From: Sclerotinia nivalis
Taxonomy: Eukaryota > Ascomycota > Leotiomycetes > Helotiales > Sclerotiniaceae
Assembly: GCA_029531795.1 (NCBI GenBank)
Contig: JAPEIS010000004.1
Span: 310,001-374,000 of the forward strand
Length of the DNA stretch: 64,000 nucleotides
Direction: 5' to 3'
The notes below the pieces were generated by a model that was not told where the DNA came from, did no database searches, and saw nothing but the letters and a program-made list of their open reading frames with translations. This document shows positions 3,225 to 59,885 of this stretch, one piece after another (positions within the stretch are counted from its first letter, which is position 1; every line of letters begins with the position of its first letter). The position numbers and the translations under genes were made by a program.

Positions 3225-3311
3225 TGTTACGATCACGGATCTTACAGTAATCGATCGTATGAATATATGTTATGATTTAATCGGATCAGTATAAGATTAA
3301 GGTAATAATAG
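3225..3311 (+). repeat. Gypsy V 5' LTR, first 87 bp
   Basis: The segment starts TGTTACGATCACGG and ends at the LINE target TAAGGTAATAATAG (3298-3311). It aligns base for base with 28108-28194, with only transition-type differences apart from a few positions. The rest of this LTR lies 18.7 kb away at 21970. Confidence 0.92.
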
Positions 3312-3639
3312 TGTGTGTGTGTGTGTATGTTATTATTTAACGGTCGGAGGCTGGGGACGAAGTCCCCTTTTTTGTTGTATACTCTATTAAATCAAAGGCC
3401 GCCAGGGAGTTATTTCTGGGCTATGAATAGTTATATATATATAACTATATCTAAGAATTGAATGATTCGTAGGTGTATTTCTATAGTTGCTGTGATTTTG
3501 TTTTTACTTTGTGATCTTTTAAAGGGATTACGTAATATTATTAAATCTGCTAAGCTGTAGTTGGTCTGTCTTCGGCCCTATGATTTTTCTAATACAATTG
3601 TTTATTCAAAAAAGGAAAAAAAAAAAAAATTTATTTTTA

Positions 3640-4087
3640 ATAAAAGAAAATACAGAGGAAAAATTTCATTATTATCAATTTATTCATCTTCGAGGATATT
3701 GTTATCCCTTGGGGGGGGTATGAGATTTGATATCGGGGTAGATTCCAAAGGGAGGTGTTGGGGGTATATATCGATGAAGAAATTAGTTCTATTTGTCCAT
3801 TCTGCCAATTTTCTGGCTCCTTCGTAGATGCCACAAAGATATAGGAGGAGGGTCTCAGGTTTGCCTTTCGGACGAAGGTGTTTTCTCTTAGCAATATTGC
3901 AGAAGAAGAAGTGTAAGGGGGTTTTGCATGTATTGCATCTGCAAAGGGTACATACATTCTGATGATGGAATTGTTCATGATAGATGGCGAAGTCTCTGTG
4001 CCCTGATCGGATAATTATCAAACGTTCTAAAAAACTTCTGGGTAAAGCAAATTCTTTAGGGAATTTCGATAACGAATAGATCTCCAA
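3640..4087 (-). pseudogene. LINE2 ORF2 C-terminal fragment
   Basis: Longest open piece of LINE2 ORF2. It encodes a segment like LINE1 residues after RNase H: HRDFAIYHEQFHHQNVCTLC, a PLHFFFC Cys/His patch and a C terminus with FFIDIYPQ against LINE1 FYQDIYPR. It confirms LINE2 as a relative of LINE1 rather than a RIP-mutated copy of it, because many changes are transversions and length differences. Confidence 0.75.
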
Positions 4088-4882
4088 AGTTTTATAGAAT
4101 AAGGGGATTATTATTGATTATAGTTTATCAATAGCTTTTTGTTATGAATCTTTGGTTTCTCTTCTGAATCCTGTATACGAGAAGTCTGATTCGGGTTATT
4201 CAAAGACGGCTTTTGTTTTTGCTGCTTTGTCGGCTGTCTTATTCCCTATTATGTCTTTGTGCTCTGGGATCTATCGGATGCGGATCGTACTATGCCTTCA
4301 ACTTGATACCAATCTTCAGAAGGATATAAAGGTTTCCTATAAGGAACCTGTAGAGTTCGAAAAAAGCTGCACCGCTATTTCGATGTTATCAAAACAGATC
4401 CAGATATTCGGGGCCATTTTGGTTTCTAGTAGAGCGATTGTGGTTTTAAGATCTTCAAGTGCTGTTTCAGTTTCTGCATTGTATATTTCCTTATATTTGC
4501 CTATTGCGAAGCTGACTTTGTAGAGTTTATATCTATCCAGATATCCGATAACACTACATCCTGTATTTCCATTCGTTTATTTCGATTCGTTAATGAAAAC
4601 CATAATGTCGTTTTATAGAAGTAGATTATAGAATTCGTTGAAATCGTTCGCAGTATTCTTTTTGCTTTGGTTGTTGGGATTATTTATACGATTCAGGGTT
4701 TGTTCCCTTGATTCAATTTCTAGTTATTTCGACGTTGTTAGAGGATTAATCTGTTTTAATAGTAAAAGGGATAGTATTTTTCTGGTATATCGGATTTTGA
4801 ATGTATTATGGTTTTCTTATATCCAATCTGCTTTTCATACTAAAGGATGATAAGGATCGAGTTTTTTTGTTCTAATTATTAT

Positions 4883-5045
4883 TGTTACGGGTTCATCTCC
4901 CTTCACCTGCACGTGATCATGTGTGCCTTAGGCACACATGCATACACTCACTTCTATATAGTCAGGTCACCTCCTTGACCTTCTTCTCCTCCTCGTAGTA
5001 CAACAATAGATCAAACCTACACATACCTTTTCCCTCACCGTGATA
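4883..5045 (+). repeat. Solo LTR, family Z, inside LINE2
   Basis: A 163-bp sequence starting TGTTACGGG and ending CCGTGATA, flanked by ATTAT on both sides (4878-4882, 5046-5050). It contains a perfect hairpin at 4918-4940 (10-bp arms around TTA, GTGTGCC...GGCACAC). A near-identical copy lies at 60807-60966. The low mutation level against its decayed surroundings suggests a late arrival or protection by its short length. No internal domain remains here. Confidence 0.88.
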
Positions 5046-8000
5046 ATTATTATTGCAGTGATACTATCGAGTTCGATTTTAGGGGGTTTAAGTTCTGATT
5101 CTTAATAGAAAATGATTATATTTATTGTTTTCTAAGTTGATAGAATTGTTTTGGTATATTCCAGAGTTACTTTAATTAGAACGTTGATATAAATGTTTAC
5201 TTTATTGTTTATCTTGTATTCTTTCCCAAAATATATTTTTCCTAACTATCAGATTTCTACTCTGTAATATACCTTTTTGAATACATATGTTTCGGTTATT
5301 TATCGAAGTAAATTGACTGGGACGTTTTTCATTGAATTGCTCAAAGATTTGAGAATCTTGGTAATTATTATTGTTTTCGTTATAAATTCTTTTATATATC
5401 ATTTGAAGAAAAGTTTTTTATCAAATAAGATTCCGAGTTATCTAAGATATAATTTTCCATTATTTAATTCTTTGATTATGAGATTCTCTATTGGAATCGT
5501 CGAAATTATATTTGGATTTTGATTCGTTCTTTGTTTCGAGAAATGGATCAGTTTGGATTTGCTTGGGTCGAAGATAATCCCTTCCGAGATACTCTAAGAG
5601 AGGATTTCGTTGATTATAAAGATAAGATATTTGGTATTATCGGACAAAAAGTTTGAAGTTATTACAATGGTAATGTCGTTTGTATATCCGAATTTGATTA
5701 TGTTCTTTTCTATTCTGAAAATCGGGGCAATGTATAATATGAAAAGAATTGACGAGATAGAGGATCCTTAAAGGAGTCTACAGTCAATTTCCGTTTTTGG
5801 ATTGATGATCCTGTCCAATCGGATCTGTATAGATCTCTTTGTAATAAAGAAGGTTAATCATTTGATCAGATTATATGGTTATCTTTGTTTGTATAGTTTG
5901 TATATAAATTGGTCTGGGAGGACTATATCGAAAGTTCCTTTGATGTTTAGTGTTAATAAAGAAGCTGATTCATTTATACTGAGGGATTGTTCAATGTTAT
6001 AAGTGAAGTATGTCGTTAGATCAATTGCTGATCTCAAAGGGAAGGCTTCAAATTGATATATGGTTATAATTTTGTAAATAATCGATATTCAGAATATTTG
6101 TTTAACAATTAATTGTTTTAGTCTTTTGTTTAGTACTAATAGAAAAACGATGGATCTATACGATCTTGGGGTCGATAGGTTTGCCTTGTTAGGTTTGAGT
6201 ATAATAGCTAGGATCGCACTCCGAAAGAGTTTTGGATGATAATCGATATCTAGATAACTGTAAAATAATATAATGATATATAATTCAATGAATGACCAAA
6301 CTTCCTTTAGTATCATTATTAAAAGCTCGTCTGCCTCTGGGGCTGTATTCCCTACTTTGAGGATAGCGTCCTGTATTGAAAAATTGTTAATAATCGGGGG
6401 AGATAGAGAAATAAATAAAATTGTAGAATAATCAATAGAAATGTTTTCTATTTCAATTGTTCTTTTTAGAAGATTGTTGATTAGAATTTTTTGTTTGGCT
6501 AAAGTAACTATTGTTAATAACGAATTGGGTGTTAAAAAATTCTTCAAAGAAAGTGAATAGAAGGATTCTGTAATTCTATACTACCTAGTTATTGCAAAAA
6601 CGTTTTTGATTTGTTATATTTAATCCATTTTTGTATGATAAAAGAATCTTTGTATTTTCCTGATCATTTTTTTGAATTCGCTTTTACTTGATAATTGATG
6701 ATAATATTGAATATGAATATTACTGTATTCAATATTCCATTACAATTGTTTTTTATTTTAGTCTATTGTTCTTTTGGTTGTTTTATTATAAACGCTATAG
6801 ATTACCGATATCAGGTTTTCAGTATACAAATCTAGATCCTATTCATTTCTTGGGGTCTTTTTGATTGTAATCAGGTTTGTTTTTAGAAGAAATTTGAAAA
6901 GGGTAGAATTTAAACTTTTGAGTTTTAATTGTTCTGTAGTGTATTATTGTTTTGTTTCCTAAAGGATTTCGGTTATGAATAGGAAATGATCCAATATAAT
7001 ATTTAGATAAATTGCTATTTTTGTATTGAATCCCATTTGAATTAGTATATTAGAATCGAAGGCTAGATTTAGGATATTGTTGGTTATATATATAGGTTTG
7101 TCAATCTCAGATAAAAAGATCAATTGTAAATTGTTCAGCTATTTAATAAAGGAAGAGGCTTTTGGAAAGTGAGTATCCTTATAGAAAGATTGCTAAAAAG
7201 AATATAACAAATTAAAATCTTTGTATAGGAATGTATTTCCTATAAAAAAAGTGTTTGAAATATTTATAAAAGTTTGAATAGTTAATTATACTTGGATTGA
7301 AGTTCTACAAAGGGAATTATATATATTAATAATATTGATTTTGTGATTGGATTTATTTTCTAGTTGAAGGAAAAGTATATCCGAAAGGGAATGTAGGTCT
7401 TCGATGGGGGGTTTGATTTGAGTAATGGGGATGCCTAATTTTTTGCGAATATATGAGATCATTTTAGGATATTCGTTTTCTTCCCAATTGTCCATAGAAG
7501 AATAGTACTAATATACTAAATATCATTTGGTTAACCGATAAAAAAGGTTTTGTGATATATATGGTTTTTATATAAAGATAATATCAATATTTTCATTATA
7601 TACTATTGAAAATGCTATTTTATATATAGTTATACTTCTATCTATATTAATTTGAAAAATGGAAAGATATTGTTTACTTATTATTATATAAATTAAAGAA
7701 TTCAATTGCTTTTGGAATAGCAAATCTAGTAGAGTGGATTGTGGATGAAGGTGCTCTTAGGGGGGGTTATAAAGGAGGAATGTAAAATTTAGAAAAAATA
7801 GATTCTTTTGTTATAATATCCATATCGTCGATTGGTTTAGAGATTAATATTGTTTTTAATACTGAAATATATTCAACTTTGTTTCAGGTATTGTTTATAA
7901 TAAAGCTTGTTGTTCTTTTGATTTCATTTTTTTGTTCTTTAATAAAGCTTTTTCTTTGATTGGTATAGAAAGGGTATTTTTTGTTATTTACTATATATAG

Positions 8001-9296
8001 GCCGTGGTAGTGCAAGCAATAGAATGGGCAGGCATGTTTATCTTGTGTATCACATCTATTCGAATATTTGTATTCTTTGTGGTTTGTGGTGCCGCAAAGA
8101 CAGTATTTGTTGATTTTAATATAGTTTCTTTTGTTATATCAGTTTTAGTATTTGTTGTATTGGATAATCTTATACTTTCGGATCATTGATCGGACAATAA
8201 TTGTATATCCGAAAATATGTAAGATTTTCGGGATTTGTTCCATTTTGGTGTTGTGTGGAAAATTGATGAATCAATTGTAAATCGAATTGAATTTGTTTAT
8301 TTTGCTATTTGGTGTTTCTGTAATTGAAAATGGGGTGATGTGTGTTAGTTTTTTAATGGTTATAGATAGTATTTCTGGTACCATATTGTCGACTGTGTAT
8401 TGGTTGTCTTCGAAGTACCTAATTTGTCTGGGGACGTTGAAAACCTGGTAAGAGAATTATTGTGTATTTCATTCTATTTGTATTTTCCCGACCGGAGAAT
8501 CAAAGTAGGTATGGATAGTCTGTATTTGTGATTCCAGTATATTGATAAAATCTGGCTTGTAGGGGCAGAGTGCAAGTCTTGATTTTATGTATTGTACTTC
8601 TTTAAGGGCTGCACTATGTGCTTTTAGTTGATTCTTAAGGCTGGTGTAAATAGCGTAAATATATATATCCCTTGTTGGATGGTTGGATAAAAGTTGGATA
8701 AAGAGTTTATTATCCTTATCGTTTCTTTGAATATTCTTATCTTTTGTAATTAAGGATTTGTTCTTAGGTTTTTCTGTTTCGTTTAATGCAAAGATTGTAA
8801 CCTTTGTATATATAGTTTTAGTATTGACCTAGAAAAATTGAAAAGTAGAGAAAGGGGTTCTAATAGTTATGAATCTTATGGGTATCGTACTAGAGATAAA
8901 TACTTGAAAGTGGTTTGTTGTTATAGATATAAGTTCATTGTTGAGTTTACCTAGGGTTTCTTTTAAATATCGAGGGAGGCTATAATTGTTGATGCAGTGT
9001 TGGTCCAGGAATTTGGCAACTAAATCGAAGAGGGATTGCCTTTCAGATGCTTTAATAGAAACTATTGCAATAGATTCCGTTAGAGCCTTCTAAAGAAATC
9101 CTTCAAGGATAATAAATGATACTATAAGTAATGATTTTTTTATTTTATTTTTTTTATTATGATGTTTAAGGGGCAGCGTTGTTTCGTAATATAAAATATG
9201 AAATAAACAATATAATTATAATCAATTTCTCTTCTGATAAAGAGATATATGCGTAATGTGTAAATCCTAATGTGTGTTATAGTTAGGTAATCATAG

Positions 9297-10196
9297 TGTA
9301 TATATGTGTGATATTTTTCGTCCGAGGCTCTATGCAAAGCACAGACCTCAAATTCCCAATTGGGATAAAGGACGCTAGAGGAGGAAGGTCTCTGGGTTTC
9401 TGAGCTAGCTATATAAAAACCCTTTTCAGGGAAAAATACTAATTTGGTAAGTGTGTTATGTACTTCAGCAGGGTTTATATAATTGTTATTGTGTGTTGAA
9501 TTAATTTTTTGGGCGGATATATTAGTTGCCCTCTTCAATACAGTAGATCATCCTCAATCTATGTGATCTTTCTCTCTTAATTTGTATCCTCTATAATATA
9601 ATCAAGTATTTCAATCGTTTTTTCTTTTATTCTTTATAACAATTTATCTTTATGCGAAACCTTATAACTAGTTGTAATCCGGGGATGTTCTTGGGCCTGC
9701 CTTTGCAAACTAAAGTTCATTCGAGTATCGTTGTTTTTCTATTCCTTTTGTTCTTTCGTAGTTTCCTATTATCTGCCTCTACTACAAATCGAGATTGTAA
9801 TAAACTTCAGGTTCAAATCATTCAGGACGTCGAAGAAGATTAGTTCCCAGGTTGGGGTTATTATTTTCTTTTGATGTGAAAATCCTGCAAAGTATTCCAA
9901 AGGAATCAATCGTTTATATCGATAATTGTACGGAGTATCAAATCGTACACTTAACTAAAACGAATAATGGCTTTGTTGTTAATTGTCATTATCGTAGTAT
10001 AATCCTCTGTTCTGATCGCTGTTAGTTAATGAAGTAAAATGAAAAAATTTCGCTCTTATGAAAAACCCCAATTCTCAACCCAATCCAGCCTTTCCAGTTT
10101 TGTTACGTATTCTCTCGTTAGCTCAGATGAATACCAAAAGCATCACCAGTTCGTAGCCAACACCGTATACAGGTGAGAGATCCGTCTTCGCCGGCC
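9297..10196 (-). mobile_element. Element D: short non-autonomous element with LINE1 3' end
   Basis: A 900-bp unit between two copies of the LTR target (9284-9296 TAGGTAATCATAG; 10197-10210 TAAAGTAATCATAG). Its last ~260 bases (9297 to about 9560) match the LINE1 3' end, including the hairpin (9324-9349) and the CCCAATTGGG palindrome. The remaining ~640 bases match neither LINE1 nor LINE2 coding sequence, and I recognise no protein in them. A 63-codon plus-strand ORF at 9652-9843 has no family I know. Its 5' head contains CACCTGTATACGGTGT and TACGAAC, also found at the start of element S. It is best read as a LINE-mobilised SINE-like or chimeric element; a LINE1 copy with replaced 5' sequence is the alternative. 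Confidence 0.72.
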
Positions 10197-10210
10197 TAAA
10201 GTAATCATAG

Positions 10211-13200
10211 TGTATATATATATATGATATTTTTCGTCCGAGACTCTATACGAAGCACAAACCTCAAATTCCCAATTGGGACAAAGGACACCAGGGGAGA
10301 AAGGCCCCTGGGTTTCTAACTAGCTAATCTAAATTTACTAGTATTATATATACTAAATGCTTTAGCAGGGTTTACATAATTACTATTGTATATTGAGTTA
10401 ATCCTTTGGATAGATATTTCAGTTGTCCTCTATAATACAATTAGATCCCTCGATTTCTAATCTCCTCTTCTTCGTTATTGCAATCGAGCTTTTTAATATG
10501 ATTTTGTTAATATAAAGATTTTTTTTTTTTTTTTTTTTAAATTTATACAAACTCAATCTTTCCGAATCAAAATTCAACACTTTATACAAAGAAAATCCAA
10601 AAATAATATAAAATAAAAATAAAAATAAAAATAAAAATCAAAGCAATTCTTCAATCAATAAATTGTATAGGGAATCGAGGATATATATCCTGATAGAATT
10701 TTATAGATTTGAACCAAACTGTTAGTTTTGTTGTTCCTTTTATGCTTCTCAAAAGATAGAGGATGGCTTTAGATAATGGTAATTTTGAAAAGGTTTTTTG
10801 AGTATTTCCAATTTTACAAAAGTAAAAATGAAAAGGGGATTTTCTTTTCCTATATAAGTATAGTATATAAGTATCTTTATAATTGAAGTGATTGTGATAT
10901 GCTACGAAATCGCTATATTGAGATCTGGTTGTTAGAATATATTCTAATATTGTTTGATCAAAAAAAAGCATAATCGATTTATTATTATAAGTTATAAAAA
11001 GATCATTGTAGTTTTGTAGTATTATAATTGTCCATAATTTAGCTTTTACTAATTTGGTATTCGTTTTAGCGATTCTTTTCAAGAAGGTAAGAATATAGAT
11101 AAAATCAAATAGGGATAAGAGTATTGCTCCCTCTTTAGTTGTTTTATTCGCTGTTTCGTTTCCGGGGATATCTAGATACCTAGGAATCCACCGAATTCGA
11201 ATTGAGCCAGGGCAAGTATATGGCAAATAGGGTCTAAAAGGTCAAACTGTAACTAGTTCGCAGAATTCTTCAAATATAGATTGAGAGGATTTAATAGAAT
11301 GAAAGTTTAATTGTATAGCAACCTTTAGGTTATCCAAGAAAACCCAGAGGTTTATAACGAACCTAGTTGAGGGTAGCTGTATTGCTATTTGAGTACCTTT
11401 CAAAGCTGCAGCTACTTCGGCATCGAAGACTTCAGTATTATAATTTAGTGAGAAAGCCTATCGATCCATTTGCAGATTGTATTGATAAATCACTGATCCA
11501 CCTTCTATAACACTATTTAAAGCTTCGCTTTTCGAACCATCGGAGAAGACTTGCAAATCACTTTTTGGAATTGTAGATATAAACCTTTCGAAATCCTTAG
11601 CTACTTGTTTCTTCGAACAATCGAGAAAACTACTGATCCAGGTTTCTGTAATAATATATGATTCTTTGTTCCTTCAAAGAGGAAAAGCAATTGGATTGAT
11701 ATATTCAGCTTTTGAAAAAACTAGGATAATTCTTAAGAATCTTGATTCAACAGTTCTAGCCCTAACTTTAACTAGAATATTTTTGATTCGAATTTGAAGG
11801 GGATGTTTAGGATTTAATCGAGTTGTTCGAACAGCGAAATTTTGGGATATCAAATTTAGCTCAATCTCAGAAGGTATCAGATTTGATTCCTTGTATAGAG
11901 CAACAGTATTAGTTATACGGAATACAAAGAGGATTGCTCGAGTACTAGTTAATACAATCTTATTCAAAAGCTTCAAATGTTTATCCACTTGATTCGAGAT
12001 TGTGAAGTTTAGATCTCGTTTCCTAGTTCGGTCAGACTATCAGGTTTCGGCTGCAAAGTAATATTTCTTCAGGATACAAATTGTAACCACTTTTTGAAGT
12101 AAAATTGATGGGATGCCTCGAGTTGTCCTTCCAAACAAATACAGCGCATTTACAATAGTAAAAGCCTTAACTGAAAGGATCTGGATATAAAATTTGAAAC
12201 TCAGTTCTTTATCGAAGTAAACCCTTAATTATCTCAATAGATCTGGTTTTTTTATTATTAAAAGATTTTCTGTATAAATAATAGGGTTTTCGATATCTTT
12301 TCTAGAGTTTTTGAAAAAATATATCAATTCAAACTTTATAGGATCGAAAATGATCCCTTCAGATTTGCCCCAATCCAAAGCCTCCAGTATTTCGGATTGT
12401 AATTGATCACAATTAAATTATAAGCTTGAAGAAAAAGCTATTAATGTAATATCGTTTGTATATCCAAATCTTCGAGTAGGATTGTTTAATCAAAATAAAG
12501 AAGCTATATAAAGCATAAAAAGAATAAATGAAATTAAGGAGCTTTATAATAAATTATATTCAATACTAATATTGGGCTCTGTTTTATCATTAAGTCGAAT
12601 ACGAATTATTCGATTTGTAAAAAACGATTGTATTTATCGAATTAGGTTATCAAACTATTTTTGTTCCCTGAATCAGCGAACCAAACGTTCTAGGAAAACA
12701 ATATCAAAAATACCTTTGATATCCATAATTAATAAAATAGTTTTAGAATCTAAATTCAAAGTTATTTCCAAATTATATATAAAGCAAATTGTGAGATCGA
12801 TTGATGAATATAGGGGAAACACTCCGAACTATTGTTTGGCTAGTATTTTGAGGATTATAGCAATCCAGGATATCTTCTTTGCAATTAAATATTCGAGATC
12901 TTTTTCTAATACTAAGAGCAGGGCTATTGGTCTATAGGATTTAGGGTTTGTGTAATCTGATTTATTCGGTTTCGGAACGATGACTATAATCGCTGATCGG
13001 AAGCATTTAGGGTGGTGACCTATTTCGAGGCATTTTTGAAAGAGTTGTAAGATATATAGTTCGATCAGTAACCATGCTAATTGTAGAATCTTGATAGGGA
13101 TCTCGTCTATTCCTGAAGCTGTATTACCTATACGAAGGATAGCAGTTTGAATATCCTGAATTGTGATAGTAGGAAAGGCAATTGAACGAATAGAAGTTGA

Positions 13201-16072
13201 AAGTGAATCAAATAGGATATCGTTAACTTCAGCTGTATTGATCAGCAGATTATTGATGAGTAGATCTCTTTTAGTTTGAATTATTATAGCAAAAGAATAA
13301 TCTAAAGGATCTATTAAAGGAGGAGTTCGATATGTTCTAATTGATTGATGCTATTTTGTTATTTTAAAAATATCTTTTATTTCCTTGATTGAATCAAGCT
13401 TAGAAAACTAAAATTCCTTTTTCGCTTTTTTGATAACCTTTCGAAGATTTTGTTTTGATTCTAAAAAGTTGTTTGTTCGGTTTTCTTGAACAATTGTCCA
13501 GCAGATCTTGTTCCATTATAGTTGATCTGTATTTCGATTGAATGATCTTTGAACTGATCCTGTGTATACTGATTGTAGAGCTTGAATGATATCTAAAGCT
13601 AATTTATCAAGATCTGTGATTATATTCAGAACTAGTAAATCTAGATTTAATAGATTCTCTATTAATAAAATAGAAAAGAGTTTTTTGTCTAATATATTAA
13701 TTCGGAGTCTTTGGATTGGATTTTGAAACTTTGTATTCCAATTCAAAGTTGTCAATAAGGATCGATAATCGGAAATTGTATCCAAATACGATGTAGAAGT
13801 TGTATTAGCTGTATATAATCCTGAAAGAAAAACTAAATCGAGAATATTGCCCAAATTGTAGGTAGGTTTATCGATTGTAGAAAGAAAATTGAAAGAATTT
13901 GTATCTAATCAGATTGTAAAAGATTCTGTAGAATTTGAATATAAAAAACAAAAGGGATTCTATTTCGAATGATGAAGGTTTAAATCCTTTACAAGAAATG
14001 TAGAATTTAAAATATTCAAAGGTAAATCAAAGAGAGTTTGTATTATTTGGTTTTCATTTGTACAATCTTTAGGAGCATTATAAATATTAATGATTGTAAG
14101 AATAGAATCAATTAAAGATTGAATTTGTAAAAATAATAAATCCTGGGAGGATACAAACCGGAGCTGATTAATTCGAATACCTGTATTTTTTCGGGTATAA
14201 AATATCATACGAGGTTGGGTTTCTTAGTTGTCGAGTGGTGTGAAAGTTTCATAAGCAGAATAGGATTTAGTGATTCGATGTGAGATATTTGAGAATGTAT
14301 AAAGTTCTTGAATCAGAATTATATCAATATAAGAATCATTGGTTAAGGAAAGTACTAATTTGTATAAAGTAGTGTTTTTGGTTATATTAGTTTATAAAAT
14401 GGTTAATGATTTAGAAGATAATTTAGGATTATATATTAAAAGGAATCAAAAGAGAAGGAGCTTTTAATGTAATGAAACGATTAAAAAGATTAAAAGAGGG
14501 TGGTATCAATGAAGATAATATCGAAAGAGTTCGGATTGGAGTTGAAGGAGTAATAGATTCTTTTATAGGAGAATCGGCTTTTGGGATTCGAAAGTATTTT
14601 GTATTAGCACAAATTCTAGCCCTAATTTCTTTTGAGGTTTTCTGGATAGCTTGTTTTTCCGATTTGCTTTTGGGGCTTTTGTTAGTAAGACAAAGGGGGC
14701 AATGTAGATCGTCTGCAGGATAGAGGTCTTCACAATGTAGGCACCTTGTTGGGCAAGTATGGGTTGTATTGTATCGGATTGAATGATTCTTTTCTGTATG
14801 TTCGATTGTATTATAGATTCGGTATCTTTCTGGACAAGAGCAAGCTCGAGTATTGTGTTATTGAAAGTATCGAGTATATTGGATTATCTTGAGTTTGAAG
14901 ACGATTTGGGAAGCGTTAATTGTAGTTTCTAGAATCCGAAGGTTCTTGGGAAGGGCTGTATATTGTAAAGCTGGAAAACTCAAGAACCAAATAGAATTAT
15001 ATAATCCAGATTCTTTACTTTGTGTAGATTCAATTGTTTGGATTGTTTGTTGTTCTGTATTATCATTGATAGTGTCAAGTATAGTTTCCGATTCGATTGG
15101 AACGATGATCAATTGTTGTGAATCTTCTAAAATTGTGATGGTTCGTGGAATGTAATTCAATCGATATATAATCCATGATTGTTATCGTTCGATTTTGCAG
15201 GTTTCGAATACTTTTTCGATTATATTTGAAAGGTTTTCTAAAGTTGTTAAGTTTGCTAAAAAGTTTGTATATAATGCAAACCCAGTATTTATTGTTTAGA
15301 TTTCTTTTAGAAGTTTAATATTGTTTCCTAATTGTTTTTTCAATATACTAAATACAACGAAGGAACCGGCTTTTCGAGCTGAATGATCGAATCCAATTCG
15401 AACAAAAAAACGAATATCAGTTTTGTATAAGATTTGAGATTGAGTTTTGGATTGAGATCCAGTTCGGTTCCCAGTTTTTGGGTTTGTAGATTATATAATT
15501 GATGATAAAGGAATCGTAGTTTTTTAAACATAAATAGAATCCTTAAGATATTAGATTGTAGAAGGGCCTTTTATAGATTTAGCGATTTCAGACGCGAGTG
15601 CTGATTGAAAGGTTTGTGTATCAGGGCCAGGAAGATTGGTAGAAGTTTTAATAGAAGGTTTGATAAATCAAAAAAAATGAGATTTATTAATAAATACATC
15701 GAAATGTTTGTTTACTGTAAAAGAGATATCGGTATATAATGCAATCAAAGGTTTTCGAAGTCAGGTAGAGAAAGCCCGAACTGCTTCGGTATTGAGATAG
15801 TCGTCCTATAGTGAAGCGATGGGGCTAAAAATCTATTGACCTTCATTTGCTCTATTAGTAGCAGTATTAATTGTATTAATAAGGGCTTGGGAGAGGAAAG
15901 GAATCGAGAGAACGGGAGGTATAGTGGTGGAAACGCGTCCGTACAGCACCTACTAGGGCTGAAAAGTTTCGTTTTTAAATCCTATAGATGATAAGAACGA
16001 TCGATTGATCAATAAAACGCGATAATAAACGCGTTTTTCGAAAAATTCAATTCTTCGAAAATGTTCGAGGTA
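10211..16072 (-). mobile_element. LINE1 copy B, full length but heavily RIP-mutated
   Basis: Co-linear with LINE1-A over its whole length but carrying a dense load of C-to-T and G-to-A changes that create many stops. Recognisable pieces on the minus strand are ORF1 (about 15915-14470) and the endonuclease (14208-13516, where the GDLNLHHSRW box reads VKDLNLHHSK). The RT follows (about 13180-12240), then 11988-11674, then RNase H to the C terminus (11570-10651). TSDs are 10197-10210 and 16073-16086. The few bases at the extreme 5' end (16055-16072) differ from copy A. Confidence 0.92.
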
Positions 16073-20306: not shown

Positions 20307-21882
20307 TAAAAGGAATTGAAAGAGGAGGAGCTTCTAATGTTATGAAACGATTAGAAAGATTAGAAGGGGGTGGTATCAATGAAGATAATATCGAAGGAGT
20401 TCGGATTGGAGTTGAAGGAGCAATAGGTTCTTCCATAGGGGAATCGGCTTTTGGGGTTCGAGAGCATTTTGCATTAGCACAAGCTCTAACCCTAGCTTCT
20501 TTTGAGGTTTTCTGAATAGCTTGTTTTTCCGATTTGCTTTTGGGGCCTTTGTGAGTAAGACGAAGGGGGCAATGTAGATCGTCTGCAGGATGGGGGCCTC
20601 CACAATGTAGGCACCTCGCTGGGCAAGCATGGGTTGTATTGCATCGGGTTGAATGATTCTTTTCTGTATGTTCGGTTGTGCTACAGATTCGGCATCTTTC
20701 TGGACGAGAGCAAGCTCGAGTATTGTGCCATTGAAAGCATCGAGTACATTGGATTATCTTGGGTTTGAAGACGATTTGGGAAATGTTAATTGTAGTTCCT
20801 AGAATCCGAAGGTTCTTGGGAAGGGCTGTATGTTGCAAAGCTGGAAAACTCAAGAACCAAGTAGAATTATACAATCCGGATTCTTTGCTTTGTGTAGATT
20901 CAATTGCTTGGATCGCTTGTTGTCCTGTATTATCGATGATAGCGTCGAGTATGGTTTCCGATTCGACTGGGATGATGATCAATTGTTGTGAGTCTCCCAG
21001 AGTTGTGACGGTTCGTGGAATGTAATTCAATCGATAGGTAATCCATGATTGTTGTCGTTCGATTTTGCAGGTTTCGAATACTTTTTCGATTATATTTGAA
21101 AGGTTTTCTAAAGCTGTTAAGTTCGCTAGAGAGTTTGTACATAGTGCGAACCCAGTATTTATTGCTTGGACTTCTTTCAAAAGTTTAGCATCGTTTCCTA
21201 ATTGTCCTTTCAATGCACTAAGTACAGCGAAGGAACCGGCTTTTCGAGCTGGATGGTCGAGTCCAATTCGAACAAAAAGGCGAGTATCAGTTTTGTGTGA
21301 GATTTGAGATTGAGTTTTGGGTTGAGATCCGGTTCGGTTCCCAGTTTTTGGGTTTGTAGATTGTATAATTGGTGGTAAAGGAGTCGCAGCCTTTTGAGCA
21401 TAGGTGGAATCCTTGAGATATTGGACTGTAGCAGGGGCTTTTATAGGTTTAGCGGTTTTAGGCGCGAGTACTGGTTGAGAGGTTTGTACATCAGGGCCAA
21501 GGGGATTGACAGAAATTTTGGTAGAAGGTTTGGTAGATCGAGGAGGATGAGATCCATTGATAAACGCATCGAAGTGCTTGTTTGCTGTAAGAGAGATATC
21601 GGTACATAGCGCAATCAAGGGTTTTCGAAGTCGAGCAGGGAGAGCCCGAACTGCTTCGGTATTGAGATAGTCGTCCCATAGCGAAGCGATGGGGCTAAAA
21701 ATCTGTTGACCTTCATTTGCTCTATTAGTAGCAGTATTAACTGTATTAATGAGGGCTTGGGAGAGGGAGGGGGTCGAGGGGGCGGGAGGCATGGTGGCGG
21801 AAACGCGTCCGTACAGCGCCTGCCGGGGCTGAAAAGTTTCGTTTTTAAATCCTATAGATGATAAGAACGATCGATTGATCAA
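20299..21882 (-). CDS. LINE1-A ORF1, zinc-knuckle RNA-binding protein
   Basis: A 527-codon ORF; a later ATG (MPPAPSTPS, about residue 30) is an alternative start. The N-terminal half is Pro/Ser/Thr-rich and low in structure. A central region (about 195-290) may correspond to the RNA-binding fold of LINE ORF1 proteins. From about 375 to 450 there are three Cys/His clusters: CTRCFQWHNTRAC, CRICSTTEHTEKNH and CPARCLHCGGPHPADDLHC. Such proteins coat LINE RNA. The ORF is free of stops. Its stop overlaps the ORF2 start in ATGTATAA (20299-20306), which suggests reinitiation as the way ORF2 is translated. Confidence 0.9.
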   Translation of the reverse strand: MINRSFLSSIGFKNETFQPRQALYGRVSATMPPAPSTPSLSQALINTVNTATNRANEGQQIFSPIASLWDDYLNTEAVRALPARLRKPLIALCTDISLTANKHFDAFINGSHPPRSTKPSTKISVNPLGPDVQTSQPVLAPKTAKPIKAPATVQYLKDSTYAQKAATPLPPIIQSTNPKTGNRTGSQPKTQSQISHKTDTRLFVRIGLDHPARKAGSFAVLSALKGQLGNDAKLLKEVQAINTGFALCTNSLANLTALENLSNIIEKVFETCKIERQQSWITYRLNYIPRTVTTLGDSQQLIIIPVESETILDAIIDNTGQQAIQAIESTQSKESGLYNSTWFLSFPALQHTALPKNLRILGTTINISQIVFKPKIIQCTRCFQWHNTRACSRPERCRICSTTEHTEKNHSTRCNTTHACPARCLHCGGPHPADDLHCPLRLTHKGPKSKSEKQAIQKTSKEARVRACANAKCSRTPKADSPMEEPIAPSTPIRTPSILSSLIPPPSNLSNRFITLEAPPLSIPFNV

Positions 21883-21969
21883 TAAAACGCGATAATAAAC
21901 GCGTTTTTCGAAAAATTCAATTCCAGAGGTCTGAGGCGGTAAAAGAGTGTAAAGTTAAAGTAATCATAG

Positions 21970-22368
21970 GAACAAACGAGTACAGACTATATTAGTATCA
22001 GATCATGTGATAGAGTATTGGAATTTCGAAAACTCCCAATGTTTTTGGAGTATTGGAGTTTCGAAGACTCTCAACGTTTCTGGAGCATTGGAGTTTCGAA
22101 GGCTTCCAATGTTTTTGAAGTATTAGAGTTTCGAAAATTTTTAGGGCTCCCAAATACGAAGGTTTATATAAATAGAATGGATTCTTTTATTTGTAGAGTT
22201 TCGTATTTAAGAATAATTATTAGTTTAATATTATAATTATTATATAATATAATTGTTATATCTTTTATTCTTATTAAATCTTTGTTTGATCTTTAATAGA
22301 AATTATTATAGTTTTTCTATAAATCTTTTGATCATTTTTTAGTAATAAAGGATTGTAGCGGTGTAATA
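21970..22368 (+). repeat. Gypsy V 5' LTR, remaining 399 bp
   Basis: The segment begins GAACAAACGAG, directly continuing the target site, and ends GCGGTGTAATA (a RIP form of GCGGCGTAACA). It contains four tandem ~35-bp units (about 22015-22150) built on ATTGGAGTTTCGAA. The 3' LTR has only three such units, which accounts for the 399 versus 364 bp difference. Confidence 0.92.
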
Positions 22369-25300
22369 CTTTGAATATCTTTATTAGCTTAAATATCGAT
22401 TTGGTATGTTTTATTTCGTTATATCTTTGCAAGATTTTGTTATTAGTATTTTTTCGAATAATAACAATAACGACGATAACGATAGCGATATTGAGTTATC
22501 AGATACTGATTCTGTTTTAGTATAGATTACGGAAATCTTACGAATAGCAATGCTCGATAAGTATTATGATAATCGAAGAGAACTCGAAATCTTTCTATTT
22601 CAAATCGAAATGTATTTCAAATTTAATATTGCCAAATTTGTGATTTCTGATAGTTATAATCTGTATACTTTTTTTTTACCTTTGTAAAAAAATAGTCAAA
22701 TGGATTCAATTTTATTTTAAAGATTATTTTATTAAGTCTAGAGATTATTGTATAATAGTTATATAAATCATTTTCGAAAGTTTTGTAGGATTCAAAAAAG
22801 AAATCGGATGAGTATTTGGGAATATCGATGAAGTTAAGATAACCAAACGAAAACTATTTGTTTTAAAATAAATCGGAGTAATGATTAATTATGCTATAGA
22901 ATTCAGATGATATGTTAATCAAATTGGATAGGATCAATAGGCTTTGCTAAATCATTTCTATTGCGATTTTAAAGATTATGTAAAGTTAGAATTTGCAAAA
23001 GGTATCGAGTTTACAAATATTAATGAAATGATAGAACTTGCAATTAAGATCGATAATCGATTTTATGAATATCAGTAAGATAAGAAGTTCCAAAACTATT
23101 CAAATCAGAATTACAAGCGAAACGAAGGAAGACGATATCAAGTTAGGAATGAAAGCTATAAAGATTTGATAAAATTGGATATTATTATTTGAGGAAAGTT
23201 ATTCAAAGAAGAAATGAATAAATATAGAAATGAGAAGTTATATTTCGAATATAGATAATTAGGATATAGAGTTGCAATTCATCATTAAAAGAAATAAAGA
23301 AATTTCAATCGGAATAAGAAATCTTGAAAGGGTAAGAAGCAATTCAATATGATATTTGTATTCCAGTTATATATTTTAAATTGTATGGATTTAGATTTTA
23401 AAGAATAACTGGAGGATAATTAATTTGAAGAATTAGAAGATTCAAAAGAAGAGTCAATTTTGTAGATCGATCGAAAGCCAAGTTCAGAGGAACTTTGGAT
23501 TATATAGTATATTGATGAATGGAATTGTCGAATTTGGAAATTTGGAGAAATAAATGAAGGAACTTATAGTGATGATTTAAGTGTAAAAAGTGTTATAAAG
23601 GAAGAAATTTATAAGGTAAGAATTATCGATAAGTATAGAATCTTATGGTACAGAGTTATGATCAATTCTTTTTTTGTCGAAAAAACCTTATATTATTATA
23701 TGAAAATATTTGAACCAAGAGAAATATGGGAAGTTATTTATTTTTATTATGATATTAATCATTTTATATATAAGATATATCTAGTATAATAAGTAAAGGA
23801 TGAGTATTTGATGCAAATTCAAATCATACAATTTTTATAGACAATAGGATATTTTCTCTAAGTTATATAAGGATTACTTTTAGTTATCAAGTGGAAAAAC
23901 ATGTTTAATAATAAGATTTCAGTTGATCAAATAATTATAAATGATAAGGAAGAAGATTGTTGGAATGTTTCTCTATCGGGTTAGTTAAATCGCTTAATTG
24001 ATCAAATTGATCAAATTGATCAAAACAACCGAACGGGTTAAAATAGGCAATTAAATGTTACAGGATATAGTGGATAGATCAATCTGATAATTATAATCAA
24101 TGGGTATTGGCTTAGAGTTATGATAGACTTTGGAGCAACCGGAAATTTTATTATATAAAAAGTTGTATAAGAAGTTGGTATAAGGTTTTAAACGAAGAAA
24201 TATTTATATATATTACAATTAATAGATGGATAATTAATTGATATTGAAAATGGGATGGTATAAATGGAGATCAAACCAATAGAAATGTAGATAGGTGAAT
24301 ATTATGAGTTTATATAGTTTAATGTAGTTTCATTAGGGAATCATTAGGTTATATTGGGTATATTATAGTTGATACAGTATAATCCCAATATTAATTGGAA
24401 TCGAGGAATTTTGATATTCGATCAATGCGATTGCGATCATCGAGATATGTATGAATCTGCGAAACTGAATATATGTTTTAGGGGGTTGAAAGTGAACAAT
24501 TCTATTGATATAAGATATTGAACTTAGGATTCCTTATTGATGAATATATTAATAGAGTATAAGAAATATGTAAAGCTTTTTGAGAAAAGAAAAGGTTACA
24601 AGGTTTTATCAGAATATAAATCGTGAGATTACGAAATAGTATTAATAGAAGGAAAGATATCTTTATTTAAATCTATTTATTAAATATTGAAAAGAGATTT
24701 AAGGATGTTCAAGGAATATATTAATGATAGTTTAAAGAAAGGATGGATTAGAGAATTTATTTTACAAGTAATTAGTCTTATATTATATGTATTTAAAAAG
24801 GATGGAATTAAGAGGTTATATATAGATTATTGTAAGTTCAATGATATAATAATCAAGGATTAATATCTATTTTTATTAATTACAGAATTGAGAAATCGAT
24901 TGGGGAAAGCTAAGATCTTCTTTAAATTTGATTTACAAAACGGTTTCCATTTAATTAGAATAAAGAAAGGTGAAGAATGGAAAACAGTATTCAGAATTCG
25001 ATATAGATTATATAAGTATTAGGTTATGCTATTTGGGTTAACCAATGTATTAGCAATATGTATATGTTTGGTAAACAATATATTGAGAAAGTATTTCGAT
25101 ATTTGTTGTATTTGTTATTTGGACGATATATTGGTTTATTTGGAGATTCTGGAATAATATATTCAAGATGTTAATAATATTTTAGTATGTTTGGAAAAAG
25201 CAGATCTTTAGTGCAAATTCAGTAAATGTGTATTTTATATTATGAAAACGGAATTTTTAGGTTATACAATCTTTTTAGAAGGATTCAAGATGAGTTTAGA

Positions 25301-27480
25301 CAAATTACAGATTATTCAAGAATAGAATCAGTTTACAAGTGTTAAAAAAGTATAATCCTTTTTAGAATTTGCTAATTTTTATTGTAGGTTTATTAAAGAT
25401 TATTCGAAAATAGCAATTCCGATGTTCGAAATAACTAAGAAGAATCAGGGAGAGTTTTAATGGACGGAAAAGGTATAAGAAGCTTTTGAATTATTCAAGT
25501 AAGTTTTTATAAAAGAATCAATATTTCTATTATTCGACCCTGAATTATCAATTGAGATCGAAATCGATTCTTCGGATTACACTTTAGGGGTAGTATTAAA
25601 TTAGTTAGGAGCGAATAAGAAATAACAATCAATAGCCTATTATTCCTATAAGCTATTGTTAGCAGAACTAAATTATAAGATTTACGATAAGGAGCTGTTA
25701 GCTATAGTCGAAGCATTTAGGGAATGGAGAATCTATTTGGAAGAATCGAAATATACGGTGTAGATATATACTGATTATAAGAATCTAGTTTACTTTATTA
25801 CAATGAAGGAATTAAATAGATAATAGATCAGATGGTCCGAAATTATAACTGTTTACAATTTTTGCATTTTATATATCAAAGGAATAGAAAATGCTAGAAT
25901 TGATGCTTTTAGTAGAAAACCAGAATATTTATAAAATAAAGTATACAAAATATATATAATCTTAAAGGAAGAAGATAATGTATTAGTATACAACAAATCA
26001 CAATTTGTTACTTTCTTCAAAATTGATTATAGTATAATCAAGGAGTAGTTGAAAGCAGAATATAAACAAGATACTATTATGAAACGAATTTTTAAGAATA
26101 TGGATAATCTAGAAAAGGGATTCAATATCAATGAAGAGTTTATATATTTCTATAATAAATTATATATATCTTTCAGATTAATTGAAGGATATATTCGAAA
26201 ACAATATGAACTTCTAATTTATAGGTATCAAAAAGTAATTAGAATCTTTGTTAGAATTAGAAAAAAAGTTTACTTTCCAAAAATGAGGATTACAATTGAA
26301 AAAGTAATTGGGAATTGCAATATTTATATATAGAACAAAACTGCTAGGTATGCTTTATATAATCAGCTCAAGACCTTTAAATTACTTATTCAATTATAAA
26401 AATCTATTGTATAGGATTTCATAATGAAATTATTTATATTCAAAGAATTAGTTATATTAAAGAAGTATAATTCTATTCTAATAATAATAAATAGATTAAC
26501 GAAATTCACTTATATAATACTATTCTGTAAGAAATAAATAGTAGATAATCTAGTTTATATATTCTTACAAAACATAATCAACATTTATAATATACCAAAG
26601 GAAATAATTTCAAATAGAGATAAACTTTTTATATTAAAATTCTGGACCACTTTTATAATATTACTTAAAGTCAAATGCAAATTATCTATTATATTTCATT
26701 TTCAAATAGATAACCAAACAGAATATCTAAATCAGACAATAGAAGTTTATCTATATTACTATATCAATTATAAACAAAACAACTAGATTGAACTACTATT
26801 TTTAGCTCAATTTGTATACAATATATCGAAGACAAAAACAACAAAAGTAATATTAATATACGCTAATTATAGATATACTCTATTAATCTATCATTCACCA
26901 TTTCTATAAATAGCGAATATCAACAAAACTATAAAAAATATATCGGAAATCAAGGAATTATACAAACAGTTCTTATTAGATCTATAATTTATAGTTTTGA
27001 AAACAACTGTATATTATAATAAATCACAAAGTATAGGATCTACTTTTAAAAAAAGAAATAAAGTTTATTTGATTCGAAAAAACATTCAAATATAACGGCC
27101 AAACAATAAACTAGATTACAAAAAACTAGGACTATTCGAAATCGAAGAAATAATAGAACCTATCAATTTCAGATTGAAACTACCAAATACTATGAATATC
27201 CATCCAATATTCCATATATCCTTACTCAAACTAGCACCACTAAAAGCATCGAACACACCAGAGACCATAATCGAACCCATCAATCCGAACACTAAATACA
27301 ATATCGAAACAATATTAGATTGCAAATATATCAGAAATACAATAAAGTATTTAATCAAATAATTCGATTACTTATACTCAGAAAACATTTGGGAATTCAG
27401 GAAGAATCTTAATTGCCCTGAAAAATTGCAAACATTTTATTAGCGATATCCGGATCTATTCAAAAAGGATCAAAGGGATT
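22369..27480 (+). pseudogene. Gypsy V gag-pol remnant
   Basis: The plus strand reads, with many RIP stops, as a Ty3/gypsy polyprotein. Gag remnants lie at about 22.5-23.5 kb. Protease is near 24115 (RVMIDFGATGNFI), and RT at about 24.8-25.3 kb with CYLDDILVY (near 25110-25143). RNase H is near 25.5-25.86 kb (IEIDSSDYTLGVVL), and integrase runs about 26.05-27.1 kb with its zinc-binding and core parts decayed. A C-terminal chromodomain region lies at about 27.17-27.47 kb (NIHPIFHISLLKL, then TILDCKYIRN). The chromodomain places it with the chromoviruses. No intact frame longer than ~95 codons remains. Confidence 0.88.
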
Positions 27481-27924
27481 CAAGAAAGATAAAGGATCGA
27501 AACTTTCCAAAAGATCGAATAAAGTATTGTTAAGGCTGGAAGTATTTCTGTTTATTCTTTCTTTTTCTGTTTGCTTTTTTGTCAATTGTTCTTTCTTTTT
27601 CAAAGTATCCAATTCATCCAAATATTTAAGGCTACAATTAGCCATCCGTTTTCTACAATCATATAGGAATTTCTTTTGTTTACACAAACACAAAATTTTA
27701 GTAAATGTTTCTTTTTCTTTACGATCTAATTTCTCTTTTTGTTTATCCAGAGAAATTCAATCTGAAATATGAGGCATTTTCCGATCCCAATCTTCTTCCA
27801 AAGGAAATTCGACATTACAGAGAATTCGAGTCAGAATATATTCGGAATAACAAGAATATTAAAGATTATTAACGTCTTTTATACAGCGAAGTTTTTCATT
27901 GTGACAATAAGAACAGAAAGACAT
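27460..27924 (-). pseudogene. Antisense Cys-rich/coiled-coil ORF at the 3' end of gypsy V
   Basis: An antisense frame of ~154 codons from ATG 27924. It begins MSFCSYCHNEKLRCIKD, then a second decayed cluster (YSCYSEYILTRILCNV), then a charged coiled-coil-like stretch (LDELDTLKKKEQLTKKQTEK). I recall hypothetical proteins of this layout (two CxxC-type clusters, a W-rich spacer, then a long coiled coil) as common in filamentous fungal annotations; that is memory, not a search. Two stops (after DVNNL and HISD) look like RIP products. The 77-codon piece at 27460-27693 is only its last part. The role is unknown. A chance antisense frame is possible, but the Cys spacing argues against it. Confidence 0.55.
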
Positions 27925-28107
27925 TTCAATTTCATAATTATTGATAAATTAAACCAGAAGAATCTATTCGGAACATTTTCGAATAGAAGATAGGGATTTT
28001 TTAATTTTGGAAGAAGATATAATGGGAAAAGAGAGTTTTGTATTTTTCTTCAAAATGTAGCTCCGCTTTATAAACTTGAAACAAACTTTAGTTTAAATGA
28101 GGGATAG

Positions 28108-28194
28108 TATTATAATCACAGATCTTATAATAACCGATCGTATAAATATCTATTATGATTTGATTGGATCAGTATAAGATTAAAATAGTCGTAA
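28108..28194 (+). repeat. Gypsy V 3' LTR, first 87 bp
   Basis: TATTATAATCACAG is the RIP form of TGTTACGATCACGG. The segment ends at the LINE target TAAAATAGTCGTAA (28181-28194). A purine-rich run (GAGGGATAG) lies directly upstream and fits a polypurine tract. Confidence 0.9.
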
Positions 28195-30103
28195 TTGTAT
28201 ATGTGTATGATATTTTTCGTCCGAGGCTCTGTGCGAAGCACAGGCCTCAAATTCCCAATTGGGACAAAGGACGCCAGGGGAGGAAGGCCCCTGGGTTTCT
28301 AACTAGCTAATCTAAATTTATTAGTATTATATATACTAAATACTTTAATAAGATTTATATGATTGTTATTGCATATTGAGTTAATCCCTTGAATAGATAT
28401 TTCAGCTGTCCTCTACAATACAATTAGATCCCTCAATTCCTGATCTCCTCTCCTTCGTCATCGCAATCGAGCTTTTTAATATGATTTTATCAATATAAAA
28501 TTTTTTTTTTTTTTTTTTTTAAAGTTTATACAAATTCAATCTTTCCGAACCAAAACCCAACACTTTATACAAAGAAAATCCAAAAATAATATAAAATAAA
28601 AATAAAAAATAAAAATCAAAGCAATCCTTCAATCAATAAATTGTATAGAGAATCAAAAATATATATTCTGATAGAACTTTGTAGATTTAAATCAAATTAC
28701 TAGTTTCGCTACTTCTTCTATGCTTCCCAAAAAATAGAAAATGGTTTCAGATGGTGATAACTTTGAAAGGGTTTTTTGAATATTTCCAATTTTACAAAAG
28801 TAAAAATAAAGAAAGGATTTTTTTTTCCTATATGAATATAATATATAAGTATCTTCATGATTGAAGCAATTGTAATACACTGCGAAATTATTGTATTGAG
28901 ATCTGGCTGCTAGAATATATCCTAATATCGTTCGATCAAAAAAAAGTATAATCGATTTGTTATTGTAAATTATAAAAAGATCATTATAGCTTTGTAATAC
29001 TATAATTATCCATAATTTAGTTCTTATTGATTTGGTATTCGTTTTAGCGATTCTTTTTAAAAAGACAAAAATGCAAATAGAATTAGATGGGAATAAAAGA
29101 GTTGTTCCCTTTTTAGTTGCTTTATCCGCTGCTTCGTTTTCGGGGATATCCAAATGCCCAGAAACCTATCGAATTCGAATTGAGTTAGGGCAAGTATATA
29201 GCAAGCAGGGCCTGAGAGGTCAAGTTATAGCTAGTTTGCAGAATTCTTCGAATATAAATTGAAAGGATCCAGTAGAATGAAAATCTAATCGTATAGCAAC
29301 CTTTAGATTATCCAAGAAAACCCAGAAATCTATAACGAATCTAGCTAAGGGTAACTGTATTATTGCTTAAACATCTTTCAAAGCTACAACTACTTCAACA
29401 TCGAAGACTTCAGCATTACAATCTAATGAAAAAGCCTATCGATCTACTTGTAGATTGTATTGATAAATCACTGATTTACCTTCTGTAGCACCATCCAGAG
29501 CTTTGCTTTTCGAATCATCGAAGAAGACTTGCAAATCACTTCTTGGAATCGTAAATATAAACCTTTCGAAATCCTTAACTGTTTGTTCCTTCGAACGACC
29601 GAAAGGATTACCGATCCGGGTTTCTGTAATAATACACAGTTCTTTGTTCTTCCAAAGGGGAAAAGCAATTGGATTGATATATTCAGCTTTTGAAAAAGCT
29701 AGGATAATTCTTGAGAACCTTGATTCAGCAGTTCTAGCCCCAGCTTTAGCTAGGATATTTTTGGTTCGAATTCGAAGGGGATGTTTAGGATCTAATCGAG
29801 CCGTTCGGGCAGCGAAACTCTGAGATATCAAATTTAGCTCAATCTCAGAAGGCATCAAATTTGATTCCTTGTATAAAACAGCAGTATTAATTATACGGAA
29901 TACAGGGAGGATTGCTCGAGCGCTAACTAATACAATCTTATTCAAAAGCTTCAAATGTCCATCCACTTGATTCGAGATTGTGAAGTTTAGGCCTCGTTTC
30001 CTAGTTCGGCCAGGCCACCAGGTTTCGGCTGCAAAGTAGCATTTCTTCAGAACACAGACTGTAATCGCTCTTTGAAGCAAAATTGATGGGATGCCTCGGG
30101 TTG
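28195..30103 (-). mobile_element. LINE1 copy C, 5'-truncated, in the gypsy V 3' LTR
   Basis: A 1.9-kb LINE1 copy holding the end of RT, RNase H, C terminus and 3' UTR, bounded by identical 14-bp TSDs TAAAATAGTCGTAA (28181-28194, 30104-30117). The 3' hairpin at 28223-28248 is perfectly paired. The frame is open through the place where copy A has lost a base, so this copy shows the unshifted reading frame. Other stops are RIP-like. Truncation at 30103 falls after GIPSILLQRA. Confidence 0.93.
29436..30103 (-). pseudogene. LINE1-C ORF2 fragment spanning the copy A frameshift site
   Basis: LINE1 ORF2 residues from GIPSILLQRA to NLQVDR. The frame runs LDPKHPLRIRTKNILAKAG where copy A jumps frame. 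It then reaches RNase H (VFFDDSKSKALDG, with Gly of the SDGS motif changed to Asp) and stops at a RIP-type TAG. The open frame extends backwards into LTR sequence as far as 30272, but that part is a junction artefact. Confidence 0.85.
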
Positions 30104-30117
30104 TAAAATAGTCGTAA

Positions 30118-30481
30118 AAACAAACGAGTACAGACCATATTAGTATCAGATCATGTGATAAAGTATTGGAGTTTCGAAAGCTCCCAACGCTCCTGAAGCA
30201 TTGGAGTTTCGAAGGCTCCCAACGCTCCTGGAGCATTGGAGCTTCGAGAGCTCCTAGGGCTCCCAAATACAAAGATCTATATAAACAGGATTGATTCCTT
30301 TATTTGTAAAGCTTCGTACTCAAGAACAATCATTAGTTTAACACTATAATTATTATACAATACAATCGTTATATCTTTCATTCTCATTAAGCCCTTATTT
30401 GATTTTTAGTAGAAACCACCACAATCTTTCTATAAGTCCTTTGATCACTTCTTAATGATAAAGGATTGTAGCGGCGTAACA
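30118..30481 (+). repeat. Gypsy V 3' LTR, remaining 364 bp
   Basis: The segment starts AAACAAACGAG, matching 21970, and ends GCGGCGTAACA. Three ~35-bp internal units (about 30163-30265) carry TTGGAGTTTCGAA and CTCCCAACGCTCC. It is less mutated than the 5' copy. The TSD GATAA follows at 30482. Confidence 0.92.
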
Positions 30482-56130: not shown

Positions 56131-56132
56131 TA

Positions 56133-59883: not shown

Positions 59884-59885
59884 TA

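Follow-up and report, generated by a model that had tools for sequence, protein, structure and literature searches.

Very strong but not absolute preference of LINE insertions for one base of a gypsy long terminal repeat in Sclerotinia nivalis

The closest described systems are the site-specific long interspersed nuclear elements (LINEs) of the R1 clade, which include R1, TRAS and SART; the target duplication of R1 is near 14 bp. Tx1L of Xenopus inserts into the Tx1D transposon (we found no paper on this pair), and LINE arrays at telomeres or in ribosomal DNA (rDNA) are known from HeT-A/TART and R1 tandems. The layout of the Tad1 clade is a first open reading frame (ORF1) with CCHC and an ORF2 with endonuclease, reverse transcriptase (RT) and RNase H. 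Here we analysed a 64,000-bp stretch of Sclerotinia nivalis DNA (the window; assembly GCA_029531795.1, contig JAPEIS010000004.1, positions 310,001 to 374,000 of the forward strand), in which a gypsy element, named V, carries LINEs in both of its long terminal repeats (LTRs), and we found that LINE copies in this genome have a very strong but not absolute preference for the V LTR. According to one paper, most target-specific transposable elements are early-branching LINEs with a restriction-like endonuclease (RLE), Tx1-clade or R1-clade LINEs, R1 and Tx1 are named as the clades with an apurinic/apyrimidinic endonuclease (APE) that have target-specific members, and known targets include the genes for rRNA, tRNA and spliced leaders as well as telomere repeats, microsatellites and certain transposons (PMC4640811). 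Neither a Tad1-clade element with a fixed target nor a LINE aimed at an LTR was among the open-licence papers listed by the literature searches, and in the accessible parts of two Colletotrichum papers "target site preference" occurs only in a Drosophila reference.

Like R1-clade LINEs, the LINEs at V have an APE-type endonuclease and use one base of a repeated target in a fixed orientation with a duplication of about 14 bp. However, the target is a gypsy LTR and neither 28S rDNA nor a telomeric repeat, which sets them apart from the R1 clade; about half of the copies lie elsewhere, and the best-scoring named relatives of ORF2 are fungal. As for Tx1L, the preferred target is another mobile element, but it is a gypsy LTR instead of a DNA transposon, every copy offers two target sites, and the host differs, as probably does the clade. 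With ascomycete Tad1-clade LINEs they share a CCHC ORF1, an endonuclease-RT-RNase H ORF2 and fungal relatives, and the preferred target distinguishes them from the members of that clade in the papers listed. The stacks are head-to-tail at one target as in HeT-A/TART and R1 tandems, but the target is a dispersed LTR, and one stack may combine LINE2, D and LINE1.

LINE insertions in the two LTRs of element V

V is a single gypsy element spanning 3225-30481 of the window, with the 5-bp target duplication GATAA on each side. Two LTRs, this duplication and an RT followed by an integrase identify it as a gypsy LTR retrotransposon. When its decayed pieces were searched apart, the interior domains came in the order RT, Integrase_H2C2 and SH3_Tf2-1 on the + strand, the RT and Integrase_H2C2 matches falling below the curated cut-off of Pfam. 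An earlier note on this DNA had described LINEs inserted at the same base of both V LTRs, and this observation was confirmed: read directly, each LTR is broken after exactly 87 bp, with left pieces of 87 bp at 3225-3311 and 28108-28194. The features of the element are as follows.

3220..3224, no strand: GATAA, left target duplication of V; the same 5 bp lie at 30482-30486
3225..3311, + strand: left 87 bp of the V 5' LTR with terminal target TTAAGGTAATAATAG; by alignment to 28108-28194, repeat family D20
3312..9285, - strand: LINE2, decayed, GC 0.305, (TG)n tail on the + strand and 3' end at the left; by tblastn of LINE1 proteins and GC
9286..9296, no strand: target copy GGTAATCATAG at the LINE2/D boundary; by sequence
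9297..10196, - strand: D, about 0.9 kb, with a LINE1-type 3' tail; by a 116-bp match to the LINE1 3' end, the ORF list and other genomic copies
10197..10210, no strand: target copy TAAAGTAATCATAG at the D/LINE1-A boundary; by sequence
10211..16072, - strand: LINE1-A, full length, decayed, GC 0.308; 87% to LINE1-B over 5850 bp
16073..16086, no strand: target copy TAAAGTAATCATAG at the LINE1-A/LINE1-B boundary; by sequence
16087..21955, - strand: LINE1-B, full length, least decayed LINE of the window, GC 0.414; by ORFs, domains, alignment and GC
20299..21882, - strand: ORF1 of LINE1-B, 527 aa, CCHC knuckle at residue 379; by the ORF list, with no Pfam match
17643..20306, - strand: ORF2 of LINE1-B, 887 aa, APE-type endonuclease and RT; Exo_endo_phos_2 2e-14, RVT_1 6e-27
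16522..17427, - strand: RNase H part of LINE1-B in a different open frame; RNase_H 3.1e-06
21956..21969, no strand: target copy TAAAGTAATCATAG to the right of LINE1-B; by sequence
21970..22368, + strand: right part of the V 5' LTR, beginning GAACAAACGAG; 76% to 30119-30479
22369..28107, + strand: V interior, decayed gypsy; RT, integrase zinc-binding and Tf2-1-like SH3 pieces in order
28108..28194, + strand: left 87 bp of the V 3' LTR; by repeat family D20 and sequence
28195..30103, - strand: LINE1-C, 5'-truncated, about 1.9 kb; 87% to LINE1-B positions 10-1915
30104..30117, no strand: target copy TAAAATAGTCGTAA to the right of LINE1-C; identical to 28181-28194
30118..30481, + strand: right part of the V 3' LTR, beginning AAACAAACGAG; by alignment
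30482..30486, no strand: GATAA, right target duplication of V; by sequence

The earlier note had listed the right content for the 5' LTR break, but its order had to be corrected to LINE2, D, LINE1-A and LINE1-B from left to right; the 3' LTR break holds LINE1-C alone. All five inserts have their 3' end leftward, with a (TG)n-like run in place of an RNA tail, and they are antisense to the V genes and the V LTR. A target copy of 11-14 bp was seen at every junction in the window, so that each insert is bordered by one at its 3' end and one at its 5' end, and the 14-bp duplications on the two sides of LINE1-C (TAAAATAGTCGTAA) and of LINE1-B (TAAAGTAATCATAG) are identical. The suggestion that the LTR also donates a promoter found no support: the LINEs point against the LTR, which makes such a benefit doubtful, because the LTR promoter would need to work both ways.

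Occupancy of the LTR base across the genome

The genome surveyed was 50.3 Mb in 31 contigs (C1 etc.), and L numbers are locus labels. A tail pattern found 186 LINE1/D 3' ends (control 0), and the census took all 47 on contigs 1-3 among the 100 exact matches listed; 20 loci picked by similarity to a junction-bearing query were counted only if they lay on C1-C3, and the 47 flanks were classified partly by BLAST and partly by eye. Base 87 of the V LTR was directly occupied in 12/47 (L028, L060, L066, L068, L070, L081, L084, L087, L088, L092, L097 and L100), 10/47 were stacked, a V-site duplication separating them from the 5' end of another LINE or of D, and 1/47 (L076) lay in an LTR variant whose left half is incomplete. 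A second LTR-like repeat held 5/47, all at one base and one of them stacked, while 3/47 were stacked at other sites and 16/47 lay in other flanks. The flank check proposed in the earlier note thus gave 23/47 copies at V, 5/47 at the second repeat and 19/47 elsewhere, and the 33 first insertions were divided into 13, 4 and 16 in the same order. The reversed right half of the V site was found in 0/47 flanks. Independent copies of differing length share one base and one orientation of a multicopy target.

Of the targeting claim in the earlier note, what stands is a very strong preference; strict site specificity, with nearly all copies in the target, is not what the genome holds, since 24/47 copies and 20/33 first insertions are not at V. 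The earlier note had named a majority of copies in unrelated flanks as the result that would speak against targeting, and these off-V counts come close to it; 5 of the 24 copies and 4 of the 20 first insertions are at the second repeat.

A pattern with at most 3 mismatches found 142 V left-half sites (control 0), and this number of target bases is a lower bound. Under uniform insertion, the chance that at least 12 of 33 first insertions fall on 142 bases of 50.3 Mb is about 1e-58, and for at least 5 of 33 it is about 4e-23, so chance under uniform insertion is excluded. The uninterrupted V LTRs, which the earlier note had wanted counted, are plentiful: among the 64 exact left halves listed on C1-C8, 46 are empty and run into the right half, in 12 a LINE1/D tail begins 10-18 bp further on, and the other 6 show neither pattern. 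Two of these six run into LINE2 (C1:3158601 and C5:2199881), which brings the occupied sites to 14/64 and leaves four unassigned. LINE2 tails numbered 17 in all (control 0); four were directly at a V left half (C1:3158601, C5:2199881, the window copy and C12:2407614) and two more were stacked within V LTRs on C5. LINE2 uses the same LTR base as LINE1.

It could be argued that LINEs simply pile up in AT-rich, gene-poor repeats altered by repeat-induced point mutation (RIP), without any site preference, as 28/47 copies are in V or the second repeat or are stacked on one of the two, and repeats are favoured anyway. We regard this as extremely unlikely. Twelve of the 47 copies are at one V LTR base, and log10 P is about -44 for 12/13 at one base of a 6.3-kb element under uniform insertion. 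Insertion into the V interior was detected in 0/47 flanks, where the reference is decayed and the flanks are 110-170 bases, so that a diverged interior could escape; the only V-interior match among the flanks was L097, with the interior lying before the 3' LTR.

Single inserts between the V halves span 887, 1569, 1895 and 5846 bp, and these differing spans indicate separate insertion events. LTRs are homogenised when an LTR element replicates, V is repeated, and some stacks could arise by unequal exchange; the spread of one or a few LINE insertions in a V LTR through replication of V, through gene conversion or through segmental duplication was therefore considered, and this we judge very unlikely. 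The two LTRs of one V element carry different inserts, a stack of four elements in one and a single LINE1 cut short at about 1.9 kb in the other. Duplications and truncations are separate for the two, which speaks, as the earlier note had argued, against copying of one interrupted LTR. Different families, lengths and truncations also occur at one base genome-wide. L014 and L024 are 3' LTRs beside V interior, and L015, with CTAAA on its flanks, resembles a solo LTR; outside the LTR, L010, L014, L015 and L024 have different sequences. Stacked repeats are also difficult to assemble, but an assembly artefact of nested repeats is exceedingly improbable here: the array units differ (LINE1-A and LINE1-B are 87% identical), and the same junction was found on many contigs, the contig of the window being 2.97 Mb.

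Target duplications, other sites and the proposed insertion process

Sixteen copies were examined for target duplications, and the duplication was constant; four stacked copies run into (TG)n and were unmeasurable. At the V site, the measurable duplications were 14, 14, 13, 14, 12 and 16 bp, the last figure (L010) including three extra bases that match through a shared end. At non-LTR sites, 4/6 were 14 bp, L011 had 10 and L020 had 17. The arrays reach five elements and mix families: one on C5 reads V-left, L2, L1, L2, L1, V-right, and another on C2 combines three D with two LINE1. In 4/4 arrays with about 1.2 kb or more to compare, the right-hand LINE1 had the higher GC (0.308/0.414, 0.349/0.406, 0.361/0.400 and 0.407/0.409), and it is plausible that the newest element is rightmost.

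The LTR left half is shortened by about 46-51 bp in L014 and L015, yet the LINE is at the same base before AACAAAYGAG. Because these variants keep the base without that part of the left half, they suggest that much of the recognition signal may lie in the right half of the site. V LTRs that have lost about 50 bp immediately to the left of the LINE site were seen at L014, L015, L026, L076 and C9:2060187; they are very rare as empty LTRs, and several hold LINEs. Deletion variants as common empty sites were rejected, as a first pattern gave 2 matches genome-wide (C9:2060187 and C12:2174947), another gave 0 and a further one gave 2 against 1 in the control. By position, C9:2060187 fits the sister LTR of the L014 element.

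The second repeat is about 175 bp long with 532 sites, among them 4880-5054 and 60804-60978 of the window, and pairs about 6.6 kb apart suggest that it is an LTR. Its hot base for LINEs is CTGACTATATAGAAG|TG (L073, L074, L077 and L082). A LINE1/D tail followed 2/100 of the listed left sides of this repeat (all on C1) compared with 14/64 occupied left halves for V (C1-C8), a difference with a Fisher p of 4e-5 between contig sets that are not the same. At non-LTR sites, stacks of D plus LINE1 or of two D, with a local duplication between, were also found (L011, L095/L096). The LINE copies L063 and L098 lie a few bases apart in a third repeat (GATTGATTATTC..AGAAGGG), which is perhaps another preferred site.

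On balance, we consider it probable that LINE1, LINE2 and D belong to one lineage of fungal LINEs and that the machinery by which these elements insert has a strong preference for a single base of the V LTR, GATT^AAGGTGGTCGTAG|GAACAAACGAG. This builds on what was observed, namely insertion at a single base and in a single orientation, duplications of about 12-14 bp, truncations that are independent of each other, arrays and empty sites, and the junctions fit target-primed reverse transcription. The APE-type endonuclease would nick the + strand after ...CGTAG, the freed 3' end would prime reverse transcription of a (CA)n-tailed LINE RNA and give the (TG)n of the junction, and a second cut about 14 nt away would give the duplication. 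Since the left half is contained in the duplication, with the right half next to it, the left target half copied on the 5' side of the insert would be joined to the untouched right half, and the complete site would be restored there and could be hit again. Repeated hits on the rebuilt site would produce head-to-tail arrays, probably with the newest element at the right, and D may ride along via the 3' tail of LINE1 or LINE2. The recogniser would be the endonuclease or the ribonucleoprotein (RNP), with much of the recognition presumably in the right half (AACAAACGAG).

Several points weigh against this reading. Nineteen of the 47 copies are at neither the V site nor the second repeat, the assignment of stacked copies to the V site was made by eye from a short duplication, and the V-interior negative has the limit given above. 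A second site, TATATAGAAG|TGAGTG, is also used, and to the right of the six non-LTR sites read on both flanks there is no obvious motif in common with AACAAACGAG. For the order within arrays, the GC difference of 0.002 in the fourth array is nil in practice, and in six further arrays (200 bases per tail) GC was up in 2, equal in 2 and slightly down in 2. All observations come from one genome, and cleavage of the target by the endonuclease is deduced from sequence.

As the non-LTR sites share no obvious right-hand motif, a simple endonuclease motif is insufficient for all sites, and tethering stays a live rival: the LINE RNP would be recruited to the V LTR by a protein or a chromatin state found there, and a loosely specific endonuclease would cut the locally best base (after TAG). 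Non-LTR sites have only a loose motif, several ending TAG/AAG/GAG by eye, and the second, unrelated repeat is likewise a hot site, both of which would suit tethering. However, stacking also occurs at non-LTR sites (L011, L096), and the two LTR deletion variants retain the base beside AACAAAYGAG, which favours recognition of the sequence itself. We hold tethering to be possible but rather unlikely.

The LINE families, D and neighbouring features

LINE1-B encodes endonuclease and RT at 17643-20306, as a target-specific APE-type non-LTR retrotransposon does. In a protein search (5.8 billion proteins, 7991 candidates scored), LINE1 ORF2 gave 96 hits, whose best-scoring named relatives were fungal (Sclerotinia, Blumeria, Podosphaera, Talaromyces and Monilinia), whereas one protein from an aphid and one from a plant were confined to the weak end; a named Tad1 reference was absent from these 96 hits. 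RNase H is in a separate open frame in LINE1-B and part of one protein in many relatives. A CCHC ORF1 and an ORF2 with endonuclease, RT and RNase H, as in the Tad1 clade, are present, and from domain order and fungal relatives LINE1 is likely a Tad1-clade member. By tblastn, LINE2 and LINE1 are 37% identical in ORF2 over 884 aligned positions, 26% in ORF1 and 35% in RNase H, and on these values we regard LINE2 as a family distinct from LINE1.

D has no ORF of at least 200 aa, and its first 116 bp are 85% identical to the LINE1 3' end. The window copy of D ends in a LINE1 tail, and in L004 (589-1576; C1:3459418) the same body ends in a LINE2 tail, which would make D a modular non-autonomous element with two 3' tail types on one body. 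Hairpin z-scores of the 3' ends were -3.0 for LINE1-B, -4.0 for LINE1-C and -3.5 for D, and weaker for LINE2 (-1.5). A second D with a LINE2-type tail probably lies at C2:1601883, judging by spacing and the D-type flank of L078. Origin of D from a tRNA or an Rfam family was rejected, as neither matched, and positions 3200-30500 of the window had no Rfam match at E<=1.

We see about an even chance for the broader proposal that a fungal Tad1-like LINE lineage has specialised on the end of an LTR retrotransposon as a renewable docking site, where two families about 37% identical in ORF2 and the tail-swapping D keep one base, and each insertion rebuilds the site into a growing LINE array that spares host genes. 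If true, specificity for a gypsy LTR in a Tad-like lineage of fungi would be a new origin of specificity, with the target supplied by a competing mobile element. With about half of the copies on target, natural target deletion variants and two diverged families with one target, it would be a good system for how an APE endonuclease evolves specificity, and it shows a route by which a fungal genome builds large repeat blocks at fixed places.

The gypsy/LINE block apparently splits a reducing polyketide synthase gene (window 1-2420 and 31602-33278, both on the minus strand), with the dehydratase-containing part to the right of the block and the enoylreductase-like part to the left. Two diverged DNA transposon copies (72-77%) lie at 54266-59885 of the window, one of them with Tc5-type DNA-binding and DDE_1 domains, and 9-bp minisatellites were found at 52442-52618 and 56295-56561.

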